Shown piece after piece: positions 4,755 to 33,739 of a stretch of 33,739 nt of DNA. The notes under the pieces were generated by a model. That model had not been told where the DNA came from. It searched no databases and saw only the letters and a program-made list of their open reading frames with translations. How positions within the stretch are numbered: the first letter of the stretch is position 1; each line of letters begins with the position of its first letter. The position numbers were made by a program, and so were the translations under genes. Source of the DNA: Aphanocapsa sp. GSE-SYN-MK-11-07L (GTDB lineage: Bacteria > Cyanobacteriota > Cyanobacteriia > Thermosynechococcales > Thermosynechococcaceae); the NCBI GenBank assembly GCA_019359715.1, contig JAHHGS010000125.1:1-33739 (forward strand), read 5' to 3'.

Positions 4755-5076
4755 CCTCGCCCAGCGGCTTCAGCAGTTTCAAGCCCAACTGCCCCAAGTG
4801 CTAGAGCTTGGCTTACAAGAGTTTCGATCTCAACAGCGCTCTGCTAATTTTCTTGACGAGCAAGATATCATTACCCTTCTTGCCAGCCAGCCTACTCCAG
4901 AACAAATTCTGGCCATACGCCCATCTCCAGAATTTCAAGCGCGAGTCAGCGATCTGCTCGCCCAGAGCAAAGCCGGAACCCTTTCAGCTAAGGGAGAAGC
5001 CGAACTAGATCGCTACTTAACCTTAGAGCATCTGGTGCGTCTGGCTAAAACCCATGCCCTAGAGTCACCGTTCTGA
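4723..5076 (+). CDS. Antitoxin-like protein fused to deletion junction
   Basis: A 117-residue soluble protein beginning MVKITIDIPDDLAQRLQQFQ, with LRPSPEFQARVSDLLAQSK and LEHLVRLAKTHAL near the end. Similar cyanobacterial proteins are, from memory, encoded immediately before small HNH-endonuclease genes and treated as antitoxin-like partners. ATG 4723 is preferred over the GTG at 4672, which lies inside the vapC tail. The final residues ESPF are read from DNA that in another frame encodes the end of an HNH-type partner. The gene's own terminus was probably altered by the deletion that removed that partner. Confidence 0.55.
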   Translation: MVKITIDIPDDLAQRLQQFQAQLPQVLELGLQEFRSQQRSANFLDEQDIITLLASQPTPEQILAIRPSPEFQARVSDLLAQSKAGTLSAKGEAELDRYLTLEHLVRLAKTHALESPF

Positions 5077-9352: not shown

Positions 9353-10750
9353 TCAGGCAGAATTGCTTTTGCTGGTCAGCCGATGAAACCGCCAGACAAA
9401 GATGACTCCGGCCACTGCAACCCCGATCGACTGCCCTATCCACAGGCCAACGCCGCCAAATCCGCAGGGAAATCCGAGCAGGTAGCCACTGGTCAGCCCG
9501 ACCCCCCAGAACGCAAATCCGCTCAGTAACATGGGTACACGGGCATCTTGCAGCCCGTAGAGCGCTCCCATCGCCACCCGTTGGACACCATCGAGGAGTT
9601 GAGAGACAGCGGCAACAATCAGCATTGGCATTGCTAAAGCAACAACATTTGCATTAACCGGGTTGTGACTATCTAGATAGACACTAATGATTGGCTGGCG
9701 AAAGAGCACCAGCCCGATCGCCGTTAAGCCCATAAATATTGCAGCAAAAGCAATCCCGACGTAGCCAGCTTGTCGTGCGCTTTTCAGGTCGCCCAGCCCC
9801 AACCACTGACCGACACGGGCAGTCACCGCAAAGGACATGCCCAGCGGCACCATGAAAATTACGTACATGGTTTGGTAAACCGTTTGGTGAGCGGCCAGAA
9901 CCTCAGTGCCCAAAATGCCCATCAGAAAAGTAATGGCAGTGAACAGCCCATATTCCAACGCAATCGTGACGGCGATCGCCGCTCCAATTTTTGTCAACTG
10001 CTGAAGGATGTGCGGTTTGATCCGATGTAAATCCTGAAGAAATCGATATTGCTGCAATTGCGGATGCTTGAGGGTATAGATCAAGAACAACAGGAACATT
10101 AACCAAAAACTCAGTCCACTCGCTAACCCCAAGCCTGCCAACTCCATCCGGGGAAAGCCAAACTTACCAAACCCTAAAGCATAATTACCAATCAGGTTAA
10201 ACAGTGTGCCAATTATGACAATCCCGATCACAACCTGCGCTTGCGAAACCGCAGAGACGTAGCCTCGCAGCATTGCGAACCCCAAGGCGGGAAAAATCCC
10301 CCACACAATCGAGTCAAAATAAGGCTCTGCCAGCGCCACAATCTCTCCGGACTGGTGCAGCCAACGGAGGACTGGGGCTAAGTGGGCGATCGCAAACATC
10401 AGCGGAATGCTCAGCAGCAGCGCTAGCCAGAGTCCTTGTCGGGCAATTTGCTCAATTTGCGATTTTCGGCCCGCCCCGTAGGCTTCGGCCACCAATGGAC
10501 TGACTGCCATCACAATTCCACTCGCCACATTCAGCAAAAGCTGAAACGTTGTCGAGGCTAATCCACCAGCGGCTAGGCTTTCTGCCCCCAAATGCCCCAT
10601 CATGATTGTGTCGATCAAGCCAATTCCAGCTTGGGCGACTTGAGCACTCGCCAACGGGACAGCAAGTTTGAGAAATTCCCGACTTTCTATACCAAGATTT
10701 GACTCAGCTAATTCTTGAGTGACCACGACGGTGCCTTTTTGCTTTACCAC
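9353..10750 (-). CDS. MATE-family multidrug efflux transporter
   Basis: A 465-residue polytopic inner-membrane protein of the MATE (NorM-like) family, which exports organic cations or drugs using a Na+ or H+ gradient. It has twelve predicted membrane segments in two six-helix halves. The conserved opening LAVPLASAQVAQAGIGLIDT is followed by MMGHLGAESLAAGGLAST, and the second half begins near residue 255 with ALEYGLFTAITFLMGILGTE. The length is normal. It converges with the broken hsdR, and the gap between stop codons is only 35 bp. It marks the return from the accessory RM locus to intact genes. The substrate cannot be told from the sequence. Confidence 0.92.
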   Translation of the reverse strand: MVKQKGTVVVTQELAESNLGIESREFLKLAVPLASAQVAQAGIGLIDTIMMGHLGAESLAAGGLASTTFQLLLNVASGIVMAVSPLVAEAYGAGRKSQIEQIARQGLWLALLLSIPLMFAIAHLAPVLRWLHQSGEIVALAEPYFDSIVWGIFPALGFAMLRGYVSAVSQAQVVIGIVIIGTLFNLIGNYALGFGKFGFPRMELAGLGLASGLSFWLMFLLFLIYTLKHPQLQQYRFLQDLHRIKPHILQQLTKIGAAIAVTIALEYGLFTAITFLMGILGTEVLAAHQTVYQTMYVIFMVPLGMSFAVTARVGQWLGLGDLKSARQAGYVGIAFAAIFMGLTAIGLVLFRQPIISVYLDSHNPVNANVVALAMPMLIVAAVSQLLDGVQRVAMGALYGLQDARVPMLLSGFAFWGVGLTSGYLLGFPCGFGGVGLWIGQSIGVAVAGVIFVWRFHRLTSKSNSA

Positions 10751-29269: not shown

Positions 29270-30010
29270 GTGGTCAGCCATGCGGGTCGGTCAACGACCA
29301 ATGCAATTATATCAAACTTTCTCGCTTCGCTTGCACGAGAGGTGTCCCAAGAAGGATTGAGAATCAACAACTGGGAAAAGTTTCGTACTTTTGTCAAAGT
29401 GTATGGCGACAAAACCCAGAGTGAAATGGCAGAGCTTTGGGACAGCACAATTAGCCAACCGACAATTTCCAGGGCATTGCAGAAGATTAACCATACCCGT
29501 AAAAAAAACTTACGGGTATGTCCAAAGGGACGAAGCCAAACGAGCAGACTTCCTAGCCCACCTGGGAGACCCCAAAGCACCGCACCTAGTCTATGTCGAT
29601 GAATCGGGCATGGATGAACGAGACAACTATGGTTACGGGTATGCTCCTGCAGGGGAACGCTTCTAGGACCTCAAATCAGGTCGGCGACAGGGACGCATCA
29701 ATCTGATCGCGGAGTTATCGCAACGGTGAATTAATTGCCCCCTTTACGGTCGAGGGGGCGTGTAATCGGAGTGTGTTTGAGATTTGGCTAGAAACCTGCT
29801 TGATTCCCCGACTCTGCCCAGGAGAGTGGGTGATTGTCTATGATTGAAGCGGCAGGCTGTCAGGTGGTCTATTTACCCCCCTATTCGCCTGACCTCAATC
29901 GAATTGAGAAGTGTTGGGCCTGGTTGAAAAGCCGAATTCGCAAGTTGTTACCCGAATCTCCCAATTTACGAGATGCTATGGAATCTGTTCTCAAGCAAGC
30001 AGAGTCCTAA
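29270..30010 (+). pseudogene. Degenerate IS630-family transposase
   Basis: Pieces of an IS630-type transposase in several frames. From about 29330 come INNWEKFRTFVKVYGDKTQS and STISQPTISRALQKINHTRK (helix-turn-helix). From 29502, one frame over, come KKTYGYVQRDEAKRADFLAH and the first Asp in HLVYVDESGMDERDNYGYG. Further fragments carry VFEIWLETCLIPRLCPGEWV and, after a deletion where the second Asp should be, YLPPYSPDLNRIEKCWAWLK with the Glu. The frame change at 29501-29508 is a run of eight A where seven would keep frame. The run is embedded in an inverted repeat ATACCCGTAA/TTACGGGTAT. At least three lesions make this copy dead. Confidence 0.82.
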
Positions 30011-30130
30011 CAAATATGAATGCAGCTATGATTGCTCCCTTTGCCCTGATGGTTTTCAAAAGCAGCGATGATGCGATCGCGCTCTGCAACCGTAAATGCA
30101 ACGGGATGGGCAGGCTGGGTCGGTTCTAGA
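30007..30130 (-). pseudogene. Tyrosine recombinase (integrase) internal remnant
   Basis: The minus strand next to the tRNA fragment reads AFTVAERDRIIAAFENHQGK, then GSNH, and soon meets a stop at 30007-30009. This resembles the segment that precedes the catalytic domain in cyanobacterial phage-type integrases (usually followed by YxHYAxxVEFLFLTGCRPSE, which is missing). The match is from memory and short, but an integrase next to a tRNA fragment is expected in an integrative element. Confidence 0.45.
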
Positions 30131-30131
30131 A

Positions 30132-30178
30132 AGCCGATGATGAGATTTGAACTCACGGCCGCTCGATTACGAATCGAG
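30132..30178 (-). tRNA. 3' fragment of tRNA-Thr(CGU), probable attachment site
   Basis: Read on the minus strand this is the 3' two-thirds of a tRNA. It has an anticodon stem-loop CTCGA-TTCGTAA-TCGAG (anticodon CGU, Thr), a variable loop, a T-arm GTGAG-TTCAAAT-CTCAT, and acceptor strand CATCGGC with T as discriminator. The D-arm and 5' acceptor strand are absent beyond 30179, so it cannot make a tRNA. Integrative elements often carry or leave such a 3' piece at their ends (attL/attR). It sits between an integrase remnant and element-like cargo genes. Confidence 0.82.
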
Positions 30179-30377
30179 TTGGTGAAAAGTCAGTAGAACT
30201 TTACCAGTAAAGGTTTCAGCTTATCTCAATCCTTGCCTCAATACTTTTTATCTCAGTCTTTATCTCAATTGAGCTGCACTTCCTGCTGAGGCTTTACTGT
30301 ACAGGAAATGTCTGAAGCACGATTAACTTATACAGTGGTACCTTACATGAGGCATTACTGATGCCATTCTGCCATTT

Positions 30378-31325
30378 ATGACGATTTTACCCGAAGCTTC
30401 TGATTATGATTCGCCCTGGAAGGAGGCATTGGAGCGCTATTTCCCGCAGTTTCTAGAGTTCTTTTTCCCTCAGATTCATGCAGAGATTGATTGGTCAAGG
30501 GGTTGGACGTTTCTGGACAAGGAACTCCAACAGGTGGTGCGGGATGCAGAACTGGGCAGACGGCTAGTTGACAAGCTGGTCAAGGTTTGGAAACTGGATG
30601 GCACCGAGACCGCGATATTAATCCACATCGAAGTTCAGGGGCAGAGGGAATCTGACTTCGCTGAACGGATGTTTGTATATCACTATCGGTTGCGCGATCG
30701 CTACAATTTCCCAGTGGTGAACCTGGCAGTTTTGGCAGACGAGAATGCTAGCTGGCGACCCACTCAGTATGGTTACGCCTTGTGGGGATGCCAAACCAGC
30801 TTCGAGTTCCCGATAGTCAAGCTACTGGATTATGGATCCCAGTTTGCGATGCTGGAGCAGAGTTCCAACCCTTTTGCGGTTGTGGTTGCGGCTCACTTAC
30901 AGGCCCAGGCAACCCGTCAGAACCCGGAAGACCGTTTAAAGTGGAAATTAAGGTTAGTAAAGGGGTTGTATGAACGAGGCTATGATCGGGAAGACATTCT
31001 GGAGCTGTTCCGATTCATTGATTGGGTGATGGCCTTGCCTGCGGATTTGGCCAATCGGTTTGATGACGAATTGAGCACTTTTGAGGAGGAGAGGCAGATG
31101 CCCTACGTGACCAGCGTTGAACGTCATGCAATCCAAAGAACAACAAGGGCAAGCATTATTGAAGTCCTAGAGGTGCGCTTCGGGGCAGTACCTGAGACGA
31201 TCCAGGCACAGATTAATCAAATTCAAGATCAAGAGCTATTGCAAACTCTCTTCAGAAGTGCGGTTTTGATTGAATCTGTGGAGGCTTTTCAACGGATGCT
31301 CACGGAAAGCTCACAGCAGGAATAA
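30378..31325 (+). CDS. Rpn/PD-(D/E)xK nuclease-like protein with DUF4351 tail
   Basis: A 315-residue protein of the Rpn (recombination-promoting nuclease, formerly putative transposase) type common in cyanobacteria. The nuclease core includes ADLVDKLVKVWK-like residues and the ExQ motif in AILIHIEVQGQRESDFAERM. The C-terminus (SVERHAIQRTTRASIIEVLE then VRFGAVPETIQAQINQI) matches DUF4351. Such proteins are usually present in many copies and can cut DNA; roles in recombination or phage defence are proposed. The frame is intact. The 200 bases upstream, to the tRNA fragment, contain no gene but an AT-rich stretch with repeated ATCTCA motifs. Confidence 0.85.
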   Translation: MTILPEASDYDSPWKEALERYFPQFLEFFFPQIHAEIDWSRGWTFLDKELQQVVRDAELGRRLVDKLVKVWKLDGTETAILIHIEVQGQRESDFAERMFVYHYRLRDRYNFPVVNLAVLADENASWRPTQYGYALWGCQTSFEFPIVKLLDYGSQFAMLEQSSNPFAVVVAAHLQAQATRQNPEDRLKWKLRLVKGLYERGYDREDILELFRFIDWVMALPADLANRFDDELSTFEEERQMPYVTSVERHAIQRTTRASIIEVLEVRFGAVPETIQAQINQIQDQELLQTLFRSAVLIESVEAFQRMLTESSQQE

Positions 31326-31364
31326 GTTTGTCTCTTCTGACCTGTAGACATGCTCAGACTGCTG

Positions 31365-31808
31365 TTATTTCTCCCACAGATGTAAACCCAGACCAAATTT
31401 AGCGCAACAGCGTCGTAGCGCCATCGCCTCAGCATTACTGGAGGGATCACCCCAGCCATCGATCTCGTTATCCTCGGTTCCGGTGGCTTCCCTGGTGAAA
31501 TTGCCCTCGGCGGCGCGGAGGGTGAGTCGGCCTTCGACAACCGTGCGATCGCCGTTGTAGTGAGTGCGGACTTCCCAAGCAAAACCGGGGGCATAGAATT
31601 CCAGCAGCCGAATGTAGCTGTACCAGGAGACAAAATCAATCCGCTGTCCCTTCAGGGTCTTGCTTTTGATAAACCGCTTGGGGATCGGCTTTTGCAAGTC
31701 GGCTAGAATTTCTAAAACGGGGCGACGATAGCCCTTGCTCTTGAGGATTTCAGGGGCTTTGGCTTCCGAGATCGGGATGATTTTTTCTGCGGTGGTTTGA
31801 GCTGGCAT
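31365..31808 (-). CDS. Rad52-type single-strand annealing protein
   Basis: A 147-residue protein with the Rad52/Rad22-like core RIDFVSWYSYIRLLEFYAPG, FAWEVRTHYNGDRTVVEGRL and the very characteristic GWGDPSSNAEAMALRRCCAK FGLGL ending. Phage- and plasmid-borne Rad52-type proteins anneal complementary single strands and support recombination or replication restart. It fits an extrachromosomal-element origin for this flank. The C-terminal tail is short, as in other phage forms. Confidence 0.85.
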   Translation of the reverse strand: MPAQTTAEKIIPISEAKAPEILKSKGYRRPVLEILADLQKPIPKRFIKSKTLKGQRIDFVSWYSYIRLLEFYAPGFAWEVRTHYNGDRTVVEGRLTLRAAEGNFTREATGTEDNEIDGWGDPSSNAEAMALRRCCAKFGLGLHLWEK

Positions 31809-31877: not shown

Positions 31878-32147
31878 CTAAAACTCGTCACAGGTGCAGT
31901 CGTCGGGGCTGTCCATGAAGCCAAAGGCAAAATGCTGGCGGGGAGAGTAGTGCTTGATGCTGCCGTTTGGATTTTTAGGGAGTTGCTTCAGCTTGGCCAT
32001 GTAGCCTTCCAAATAAGCCTCGTCTGACCAGTGGGGCCGTCTGCCGAAAGCAGCATCATTCTGTCCATCCTGATACCACTCCGCTGCAATCTGGCCTTGT
32101 TCTTGATCTCGGCGTTCTCGTTCACACTCAATTTCGTAGGGTGTCAT
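31878..32147 (-). CDS. Hypothetical acidic accessory protein
   Basis: An 89-residue protein, not recognised. It starts MTPYEIECERERRDQEQGQI with a charged helix, then WSDEAYLEGYMAKLKQLPKN, and ends HFAFGFMDSPDDCTCDEF with two Cys near the C-terminus. It lies between the Rad52-type and SWIM genes on the same strand and probably belongs to the same transcript. No function can be assigned. Confidence 0.55.
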   Translation of the reverse strand: MTPYEIECERERRDQEQGQIAAEWYQDGQNDAAFGRRPHWSDEAYLEGYMAKLKQLPKNPNGSIKHYSPRQHFAFGFMDSPDDCTCDEF

Positions 32148-32688: not shown

Positions 32689-32715
32689 GTGTGTGTACCA
32701 AATCCAACTAAATAC

Positions 32716-32795
32716 ATATTACCACGGTATACAATGGTATTCAGTGGATATTCACAAAAATTCACAGATACTACCGTGGTAGACTGCGGTAGGAT
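32716..32795. promoter_or_regulatory. Operator-like repeats between divergent SWIM and RHH genes
   Basis: The intergenic region holds several copies of an ACYGYGGTA-type motif: ACCACGGTAT (32720-32729, reading as TACCGTGGTA on the other strand), CTACCGTGGTAG (32771-32782, a near-perfect palindrome) and GACTGCGGTAGG (32783-32794). A half-match, CAATGGTAT, occurs at about 32732. The same motif recurs after the RHH gene. RHH proteins bind such short tandem palindromes, so autoregulation is likely. Confidence 0.65.
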
Positions 32796-32824
32796 ATAGC
32801 CGAAGAAATTCAGAGAGCAAGAAT

Positions 32825-33037
32825 TTGGAGCGAGACCCGGAAACTGGAAAATATATAGAAAGCCCTGATAGCTTGGCTAGAAAGCCGCTGACGGTTCGGC
32901 TGAAAAAGTCGATGCAAGCTGAACTGACCGAGGTGGCCAAGTCCGAGGGGAGAACAGAAAGCGATATTGCTAGAGAGGCGATCGCCCAGTGGCTAGAACG
33001 GAGAAACCAAAAGCTAGGGGATAGCAAAAAGCCCTAG
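32825..33037 (+). CDS. Ribbon-helix-helix (CopG-like) regulator
   Basis: A 70-residue basic protein. After a variable N-terminus, the ribbon strand KPLTVRLKKSMQAELTEVAK is followed by the helix pair EGRTESDIAREAIAQWLERR, the standard ribbon-helix-helix layout of CopG-like DNA-binding dimers. The start is a TTG; no ATG precedes the ribbon. Operator-like repeats lie on both sides of the gene, suggesting that it controls itself, the divergent SWIM gene and the downstream SLOG-like gene. Confidence 0.8.
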   Translation: MERDPETGKYIESPDSLARKPLTVRLKKSMQAELTEVAKSEGRTESDIAREAIAQWLERRNQKLGDSKKP

Positions 33038-33073
33038 TATACTGCGGTTTACCTCGGAAAACCGTGGTATAAT
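33036..33073 (+). promoter_or_regulatory. Promoter overlapped by RHH-type operator repeats
   Basis: TATACTGCGGTTTACC (33038-33053) and AACCGTGGTATAATG (33060-33074) repeat the ACYGYGGTA motif. The second copy runs straight into a perfect -10 box, TATAAT (33068-33073). A bound regulator would block the polymerase here. It lies 27 bases before the ATG of the SLOG-like gene. Confidence 0.6.
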
Positions 33074-33100
33074 GACGAGAGTTGGGTAATACAATCTCTG

Positions 33101-33369
33101 ATGCATATTGGTGTGACTGGCCCCCGCAAATTGACCTCAGCTCAGCAACAGCAGATCATTGCAGATTTGATGTTTTTGTTGACCCCAAAAATAACACTGC
33201 ACGCTGGGGATGCAACTGGGTTGGACGCACTGGCGCGGGAGTTGGTAGTCAATTGCAGGCTGTACCGATACGATGCAGAGGGCTGTAAACCCTGGCAATT
33301 ACAAAAGCGCAGCCGAGGGATGGTGGATGCCCTAGCCTTCGCAGGCGGAACTCTACATGCCTGGCCGAA
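33101..33369 (+). pseudogene. SLOG-like nucleotide-binding protein, interrupted by a group II intron
   Basis: 5' exon of a small Rossmann-like protein: MHIGVTGPRKLTSAQQQQII at the N-terminus (GxTGpR) and LHAGDATGLDALARELV, the glycine-rich pattern of SLOG/DprA-like or DUF2493-like proteins. These bind nucleotides and appear in phage and conflict loci. The protein-like sequence reaches GTLHAWPK and then meets the intron boundary at 33370. The apparent stop at 33412 belongs to intron sequence. If the intron splices, the gene may be functional; the 3' exon lies outside the window. Confidence 0.7.
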
Positions 33370-33739
33370 GTGCGATTCGTTCAGCATGAATCACGGCGTA
33401 TGCCGAGCATAAATGCTGGAACCGACCTCATTACAGGTTAGGTTTAACTGTCCGACTGATGGGGGTGGAAGTCCCCCTCCTCAAACTCAGAGGTAACTCC
33501 TCACCTACCCACACCGAGTAGACTCGGAATTCTAAAGAGTGAAGCTGGGAAAAGGGCGCAATCAGACACTCATTACAAGTGACACTGGCGATAACAGGGA
33601 GTCCCCACGGTGAAACTGCTGAAAGACAGAACTTCGGCACCTTGAGTCAGAACTTCGGCACCCTCTTAAAAGCAACCCCTGGCAGGGGAGAAAATCGACA
33701 GGAAATGGGGGGTTAAATCCAGGCGCTCTCGGATGAACT
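33370..33739 (+). ncRNA. 5' part of a group II intron (domain I), running off the window
   Basis: The sequence switches from coding to a highly structured RNA-like region at GTGCGATT (33370), which matches the group II 5' consensus GUGYG. The six bases just before it, GCCGAA (33364-33369), are complementary to TTCGGC at 33633-33638. That is the expected distance (about 263 nt) for EBS1 pairing with IBS1. A second identical TTCGGC is at 33654-33659 within a 15-bp direct repeat, CAGAACTTCGGCACC. Stem-loops such as CCGAG-TAGA-CTCGG and GGGGG-TGGAAG-TCCCCC are visible. Domain V, any reverse transcriptase frame and the 3' splice site would lie beyond the window. EBS2 was not convincingly found. 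Confidence 0.72.

Follow-up and report, generated by a model that had tools for sequence, protein, structure and literature searches.

In the immunity regions of lambdoid phages (cI/cro with oR and oL), the repressor gene lies between the operators through which it shuts divergent early promoters, and related phages swap repressor and operators as a single block. Small ribbon-helix-helix (RHH) proteins such as P22 Arc and Mnt, CopG or ParD act on tandem or palindromic boxes placed over promoters. The Stl repressor of Staphylococcus aureus pathogenicity islands (SaPIs) is released by helper-phage proteins, according to the part of the SaPI literature consulted. Cluster A mycobacteriophages, in the consulted part of a report on them (PMC6550527), each have their own repressor with matching short sites, up to 30 per genome and most of them away from promoters, and distinct subclusters are heteroimmune. 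Here we describe a locus at the right end of a 33,739-bp stretch of DNA from the cyanobacterium Aphanocapsa sp. GSE-SYN-MK-11-07L (hereafter the window, which is the entire contig C125, JAHHGS010000125.1, of a 5.1-Mb genome in 159 contigs), where a gene for a 70-residue RHH protein is bracketed by arrays of short boxes. We propose, with a probability of roughly 0.8, that the 412 bp from 32689 to 33100 form a self-contained repressor-operator module of an element integrated at a tRNA-Thr gene, and that this module is exchanged as a unit.

Phased boxes on both sides of the RHH gene

At the right end of the window, genes for a single-strand annealing protein (SSAP), an 89-residue protein and a SWIM-type zinc-finger protein lie on the minus strand, and the RHH gene and a SLOG-like gene run divergently from them on the plus strand. 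The region between the start codons of the SWIM and SLOG-like genes contains the following features.

32689 to 33100, no strand: exchangeable cassette of 412 bp (RHH gene with arrays A, B and C); the relative L063 has an unrelated 438 bp in its place
32716 to 32750, no strand: array A at the proposed SWIM promoter, with boxes at GG 32726, 32736 and 32746 and one minus-strand box
32772 to 32795, no strand: array B at the proposed RHH promoter, with boxes at GG 32778 and 32788
32825 to 33037, plus strand: RHH regulator of 70 amino acids with a TTG start, matched by PF01402 RHH_1 and PHROG
33041 to 33073, no strand: array C, 3' of the RHH gene, with boxes at GG 33046, 33056 and 33066

The unit of repetition is a (C/T)GG(T/A)(A/T) box recurring in 10-bp steps, a pattern that was defined only after inspection of the sequence. 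Each array overlaps a -10-like sequence. Array A covers an extended -10, TGG-TAATAT (minus strand, 32721-32716), 27 nt ahead of the SWIM ATG; array B covers the candidates TAGACT (32780-32785, in extended form TGG-TAGACT) and TAGGAT (32790-32795); array C covers TGG-TATAAT, 27 nt ahead of the SLOG ATG. The three proposed promoters have -10 elements but no good -35 elements. From array A to array B the distance is 52 bp (GG 32726 to 32778), or roughly five helical turns. Operator-like arrays at proposed divergent promoters flank the RHH gene on both sides, a feature of phage immunity regions.

The original prediction had placed ACYGYGGTA-type motifs before the SWIM and RHH genes and again after the RHH gene, the last overlapping a perfect TATAAT. 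Both points were borne out, and the case is stronger than first put: the window holds four exact matches, all within 32720-33069, and TATAAT occupies 33068-33073, preceded by TGG. Across the 5.1-Mb genome the exact motif occurs 68 times (34 + 34), about once per 75 kb, and the backward pattern 109 times. Allowing one mismatch makes the motif weak by itself, with 20 window matches against 12.7 expected, a number reached by 3 of 100 shuffles. Five box pairs at exactly 10 bp were reached by none of 5000 dinucleotide shuffles, be it at 10 bp or at any spacing from 5 to 24. A 9-mer present at least twice before the RHH and SWIM genes and at least once after the RHH gene arose in 2 of 5000 shuffles; merely sharing a 9-mer is not significant, at least 9 bases being shared in 320 of 5000. 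The pair pattern ACCRYGGTANNNNNYGG occurs three times in the genome (backward control, five), two of these in the cassette. With up to one mismatch it gives three matches in the window at two places (one on both strands), both in the cassette, where 0.02 would be expected. Chance, or a motif scattered at random, which the original prediction had named as its refutation, was rejected on the clustering, the shuffle tests and the genome counts of the motif and of the pair pattern. The third ACCRYGGTANNNNNYGG site (C130:15081), a close look-alike of array B, was considered as a chromosomal target and taken as chance, as it lies within a recQ-looking coding frame. A box in the primase gene of contig C124 (C124:32328), single and coding, was rejected as an operator.

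Exchange of regulators and repeats among related elements

The decisive evidence for the proposed switch is comparative. In the closest relative (locus L063 of genome G014), the SWIM to SSAP genes are 83.7% identical in DNA to those of the window. Homology by blastn stops exactly at the SWIM ATG (32688) and restarts exactly at the SLOG ATG (33101; 80.9% over 230 bp); other scoring extends it 3 bp and 11 bp into the cassette. Between these points, window 32689-33100 and L063 9361-9798 (438 bp) gave no blastn match. The slot of the RHH gene is occupied in L063 by a 70-residue Cro/C1-type helix-turn-helix (HTH) protein (PF13560, 40.8 bits), and the repeat TTGGTTAGTRCTA stands at 9400 and 9420, before the SWIM and HTH genes, and at 9743, after the HTH gene. 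This third copy adjoins a TATAAT, which is 26 nt away from the start of SLOG. That two unrelated regulators should both be bracketed at equivalent places, each by a repeat of its own, is hard to explain unless the repeats are the operators of the regulator. The idea of the original prediction that one small protein may switch three genes gains support here, in that the boxes lie on three -10-like regions and L063 replaces putative regulator and boxes as one segment.

A second exchange involves genome G017 and Synechococcus PCC 6312. G017 has two copies of the element, L022 (G017a) and L023 (G017b), with SWIM genes 90% identical in DNA and proteins 94% identical. At the DNA level the two copies agree beyond about -15, give no blastn match from -15 to -413 and match again from -413 to -576, a stretch that encodes the C-terminal tail of the regulator. 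The heads of the two regulators are distant relatives within one family (one 50-bp bin is 66% identical, and an N-terminal NPNPVQTPEF is common to both). Over the segment -437 to -70, L022 is 85% identical to plasmid pSYN6312.01 (L065), whose SWIM protein is just 47% identical, and the regulators of L022 and the plasmid agree closely over the N-terminal head and diverge in their tails. The repeat TTATAACGGG is present in both, in four copies in L022 and five in pSYN6312.01 (up to two mismatches); the repeats of L023 are of the GGTTAACTGG type. The comparison of the three loci indicates that DNA-binding head and operators travel as a pair, independently of the SWIM gene and of the tail. The regulators at L023:10141-10500 and L022:9450-9821 have a common tail ending in KRKRGRPRK (AT-hook) and differing heads, that is, an exchange inside the gene. 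Regulators of the G017 and pSYN6312.01 type are RHH-like by sequence; no Pfam RHH model matched them, and the structure model of one is weak.

Judged from these alignments, the putative operators follow the regulator and not the neighbouring genes. This bears on whether the boxes are bound by some other protein (SWIM, SLOG or a host factor), or belong to an extended -10 promoter style, with the RHH gene a passenger. GGTA coincides with the TGG-TAxxxT extended -10 at arrays A and C, so that the similarity of the boxes could partly reflect promoter sequence. However, the boxes also recur away from the -10 in 10-bp steps, SWIM genes are 84-90% identical in DNA within two pairs that have different repeats, and in the relatives the operator moves with the regulator head; we consider a passenger RHH gene quite improbable.

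Of 386 genomes sampled across the phylum, 6 contained the SWIM protein (8 with an alignment), as did 4 of 29 genomes of the order; the own genome is included each time, and relatives of the gene also occur on plasmids. We saw 22 SWIM loci and tested 20 for repeats, leaving out L062 (26 bases before the gene) and a Gloeocapsopsis plasmid. A clear element-specific repeat was present in nine and a weak two-copy repeat in two (L069, L070). Eight repeat patterns were scanned over nine elements, G017a and 6312p with one common pattern. The own element was matched three to five times in 9/9 cases, and 56 of the 63 foreign cells were empty. The seven others fall mostly into a GTTAAC-type group; they are the GTTAAC-type G017b pattern in G014, 6312p, 6312c and G132, the 6312c pattern in G132, the 6312a pattern once in G014 and TTATAACGGG once in G017b. 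The patterns were chosen on the same data, so that the shuffle counts (0/500 each, mononucleotide shuffles) flatter the result. In G132 the repeat precedes the RHH, SWIM and SSAP-like operon genes. In the viral contig L060 the promoters of SLOG and SWIM both have it, and so does an HTH-like gene some 4.7 kb distant (no Pfam model above cut-off). Three analysed copies in Synechococcus PCC 6312 have three different operators, and the two copies in G017 also differ; such co-resident copies are compatible with immunity against a second element of the same specificity.

SLOG and SWIM genes are directly divergent in L059, L060, L061 and L073, so that the regulator standing between them in the window and in L063 looks like an insertion into a conserved early-gene pair. 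An HTH gene is divergent from SWIM in L069 and L070, and a Peptidase_S24 gene in L025; the class of regulator beside SWIM thus varies widely.

The window RHH protein itself matched Pfam PF01402 RHH_1 with 25.8 bits, above the curated cut-off of 20.5, and an Arc-like repressor family in PHROG with E 1.2e-7. No solved structure matched it at E 0.01. The AlphaFold 2 monomer shows helices at residues 28-41 and 45-66 and no strand at 20-27, at low confidence (mean predicted local distance difference test score 69.8). Among 29 genomes of the family the protein was found in one, its own. The nearest relative among the searched genome contigs, at 45-46% identity, comes from Planctomycetota (L007) and is of antitoxin type by look. 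Ahead of the gene of this relative, just before the match at 5001, TGTGGTATATTG resembles one window box fused to the -10 (TGGTATAAT); it is a single copy, perhaps due to chance.

This relative, together with a RelB-like antitoxin model as the best NCBIfam match (30.4 bits), would suit a type II antitoxin acting on operators of its own to regulate itself. Yet the RelB-like score is below the model cut-off of 50, and boxes stand at two further promoters. The RHH gene is flanked by SWIM and SLOG-like genes, scanning five other proteins with Pfam and NCBIfam gave no toxin family, and the corresponding slot of L063 holds an HTH regulator. An antitoxin is therefore very unlikely.

The arrays could also form a partition or copy-control site (a centromere or iterons), at which plasmid RHH proteins such as ParG and CopG act. 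Every array, however, lies on a -10-like sequence, L063 replaces the segment by an HTH regulator with repeats of its own, and a ParA-type match in Pfam or NCBIfam was absent from the five neighbouring proteins scanned. In favour of such a site are the phased direct repeats adjoining the RHH gene, the match to the NCBIfam plasmid copy-control model ORF56 (E 0.006, below cut-off) and the SWIM relatives on plasmids. We hold a site of this kind to be highly improbable.

The tRNA-Thr-integrated element and its genes

Around the cassette, the window contains these features of the element.

30127 to 30179, no strand: attachment repeat of 53 bp, identical to the 3'-terminal part of an intact tRNA-Thr(CGT) gene found on contig C124
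30221 to 30268, no strand: TTATCTCA repeats just inside the element end, common to L063 and the C124 end
31365 to 31808, minus strand: Rad52-type SSAP (PHROG 3290, E 0.0016)
31878 to 32147, minus strand: 89-residue protein, no family match, conserved in L063
32230 to 32688, minus strand: SWIM-type zinc-finger protein of 152 amino acids, first gene of the left transcription unit, aligned with relatives
33101 to 33370, plus strand: SLOG/DprA-like gene, interrupted about 90 codons in by a multicopy insertion extending past the contig end

Beside the tRNA-Thr gene on C124 lie genes for a tyrosine integrase (phrog_1, E 1.4e-34), an excisionase-like protein (E 5e-4) and a primase/helicase (E 1.4e-30). 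A tyrosine integrase adjoining an attachment site in a tRNA gene, here with the integrase on C124 and the 53-bp repeat in the window, is a feature of phage-inducible chromosomal islands (PICIs). C124 and C125 terminate in the same multicopy sequence, which has 21 places in the genome (18 were examined, 17 of them at contig ends and 1 internal); for this reason the assembly lacks the middle part of the element. We infer that the two contig ends belong to one element. The multicopy sequence at 33371-33739 interrupts the SLOG gene and runs off the contig. It looks like the 5' part of a group II intron; Rfam over the window at gathering thresholds found nothing. The TTATCTCA(AT) repeats near the element ends (30221-30268; L063:6871-6917; L085:1658-1693) are perhaps integrase arm sites or another operator set.

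Aligned with its relatives, the SWIM protein has invariant C102, C104, C119 and H121; it has no Pfam match above cut-off, and one relative matched Pfam SWIM below cut-off. The 89-residue protein is probably encoded in the same operon. Certain plasmid relatives of the SSAP carry a Rad52/Rad22 family annotation. Homology of the SLOG-like gene to L063:9799-10236 spans residues 1-90 of 146, and its SLOG/DprA name was assigned by look (best PHROG 289, E 1e-4; a Pfam DprA-type match of 13.2 bits in L063, below cut-off).

The interval from the SSAP gene to the TTATCTCA repeats, 30270-31360 and L063:6925-8026, is a second stretch without blastn match, with a 315-residue plus-strand open reading frame in the window and different minus-strand frames in L063. 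The same genome has a second SWIM gene (L021:16198-16710, contig C83) near a SLOG-looking gene at the contig end; no RHH gene was seen next to this SWIM gene, and its promoter is without a repeat. A 96-bp fragment (30031-30126) immediately external to the attachment repeat is 93% identical to an internal part of the integrase gene on C124 and may be what remains of a previous element at this tRNA site. Just outside the element, 29270-30010 holds broken transposase-like reading frames that resemble IS630. On plasmid pAQ5 of Picosynechococcus PCC 7002 (L031:3762-3932), a hypothetical gene of about 56 codons is listed by a resistance predictor as ACT-82 beta-lactamase, which looks like a mis-call.

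The proposed switch and its likeness to known systems

For the repressor-operator module we infer promoter activity, DNA binding, repression, induction and immunity in the following way. RHH dimers would bind the boxes, which recur once per helical turn in arrays A, B and C, and would line one face of the DNA; over the -10 regions they would exclude RNA polymerase. Three promoters would thereby be shut off, those of the SWIM-89-residue-SSAP operon, of the RHH gene itself and of the SLOG-like gene, and array B would make the module self-limiting. In the integrated state, the module would keep both the SWIM-SSAP operon and the SLOG gene silent; when the repressor is absent, upon entry into a new cell or an inducing signal, recombination and early genes would be expressed. 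Exchange of the module among related elements would change the specificity and let several elements share a cell.

A number of observations weigh against this module. No second element with the window RHH was found, so the protein-box pair of the window is without direct replication: the protein is absent from the plasmids, phages and viral contigs searched, and two distant RHH loci elsewhere are both without motif copies. Nine of the 20 SWIM loci have no repeat. L059, L061 and L073 have no regulator between SWIM and SLOG and no clear shared operator, and neither L025, with its divergent regulator-like Peptidase_S24 gene, nor L068, with an HTH gene, has a repeat. In the window, no 12-mer (exact), 14-mer (one mismatch), 16-mer (two) or 18-mer (three) joins the SWIM/RHH intergenic region to anything within 9 kb, so that its boxes are shorter and more degenerate than the repeats of the relatives, and the repeat test that detects operators in the relatives misses them. 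A sigma-70 consensus scan, for which a -35 is required, reported two sites (1.0 expected), both of them elsewhere than at the three proposed promoters. Repression, rather than activation, would be read from the -10 overlap only. Given the broken SLOG gene, the window copy may moreover be decaying.

If the module is as we propose, it would be a minimal switch of one 70-residue protein and three arrays in 0.4 kb, and the relatives would provide a natural exchange experiment in which operators travel with their regulator. With it, one can test whether heteroimmunity decides which integrated elements live side by side in cyanobacteria; it also provides candidates for orthogonal repressor-operator pairs. 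More tentatively, and with odds somewhat short of even, cyanobacterial integrated elements and plasmids might have a standardised socket beside the early SWIM gene, into which self-contained cartridges, each a regulator of one or another unrelated fold (RHH, HTH) with its operators, plug, differences in specificity letting related elements coexist. No description of this cyanobacterial switch system was found in the openly licensed literature searched. Three things seem to be new: how small the system is, the start-codon precision with which unrelated DNA-binding folds are exchanged, and its occurrence in cyanobacterial tRNA-integrated elements.

In its working the module would resemble a phage immunity region, the Stl switch of SaPIs and the repressor/stoperator pairs of mycobacteriophages, without our claiming that it belongs to any of them. 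P22 Arc/Mnt, CopG and ParD differ from the window RHH in that it is not close to them in sequence (no solved structure at E 0.01). The likeness to SaPIs and PICIs includes a primase gene. Integrase and excisionase-like genes are also shared with them, as far as the consulted part of the source describes these islands (PMC9638917), whereas no helper or inducer is known for the cyanobacterial element. Unlike the sites of Cluster A phages, as given in the part of that report consulted, the three arrays of the cassette all lie at proposed promoters. As in lambdoid phages, the putative repressor gene stands between putative operators at proposed divergent promoters, and relatives whose flanks are homologous have exchanged both as one. 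Unlike in lambdoid phages, the cassette has a single 70-residue RHH (or HTH) gene in about 0.4 kb, with no second Cro-type regulator seen between the operators, and the exchange is between two unrelated DNA-binding folds.
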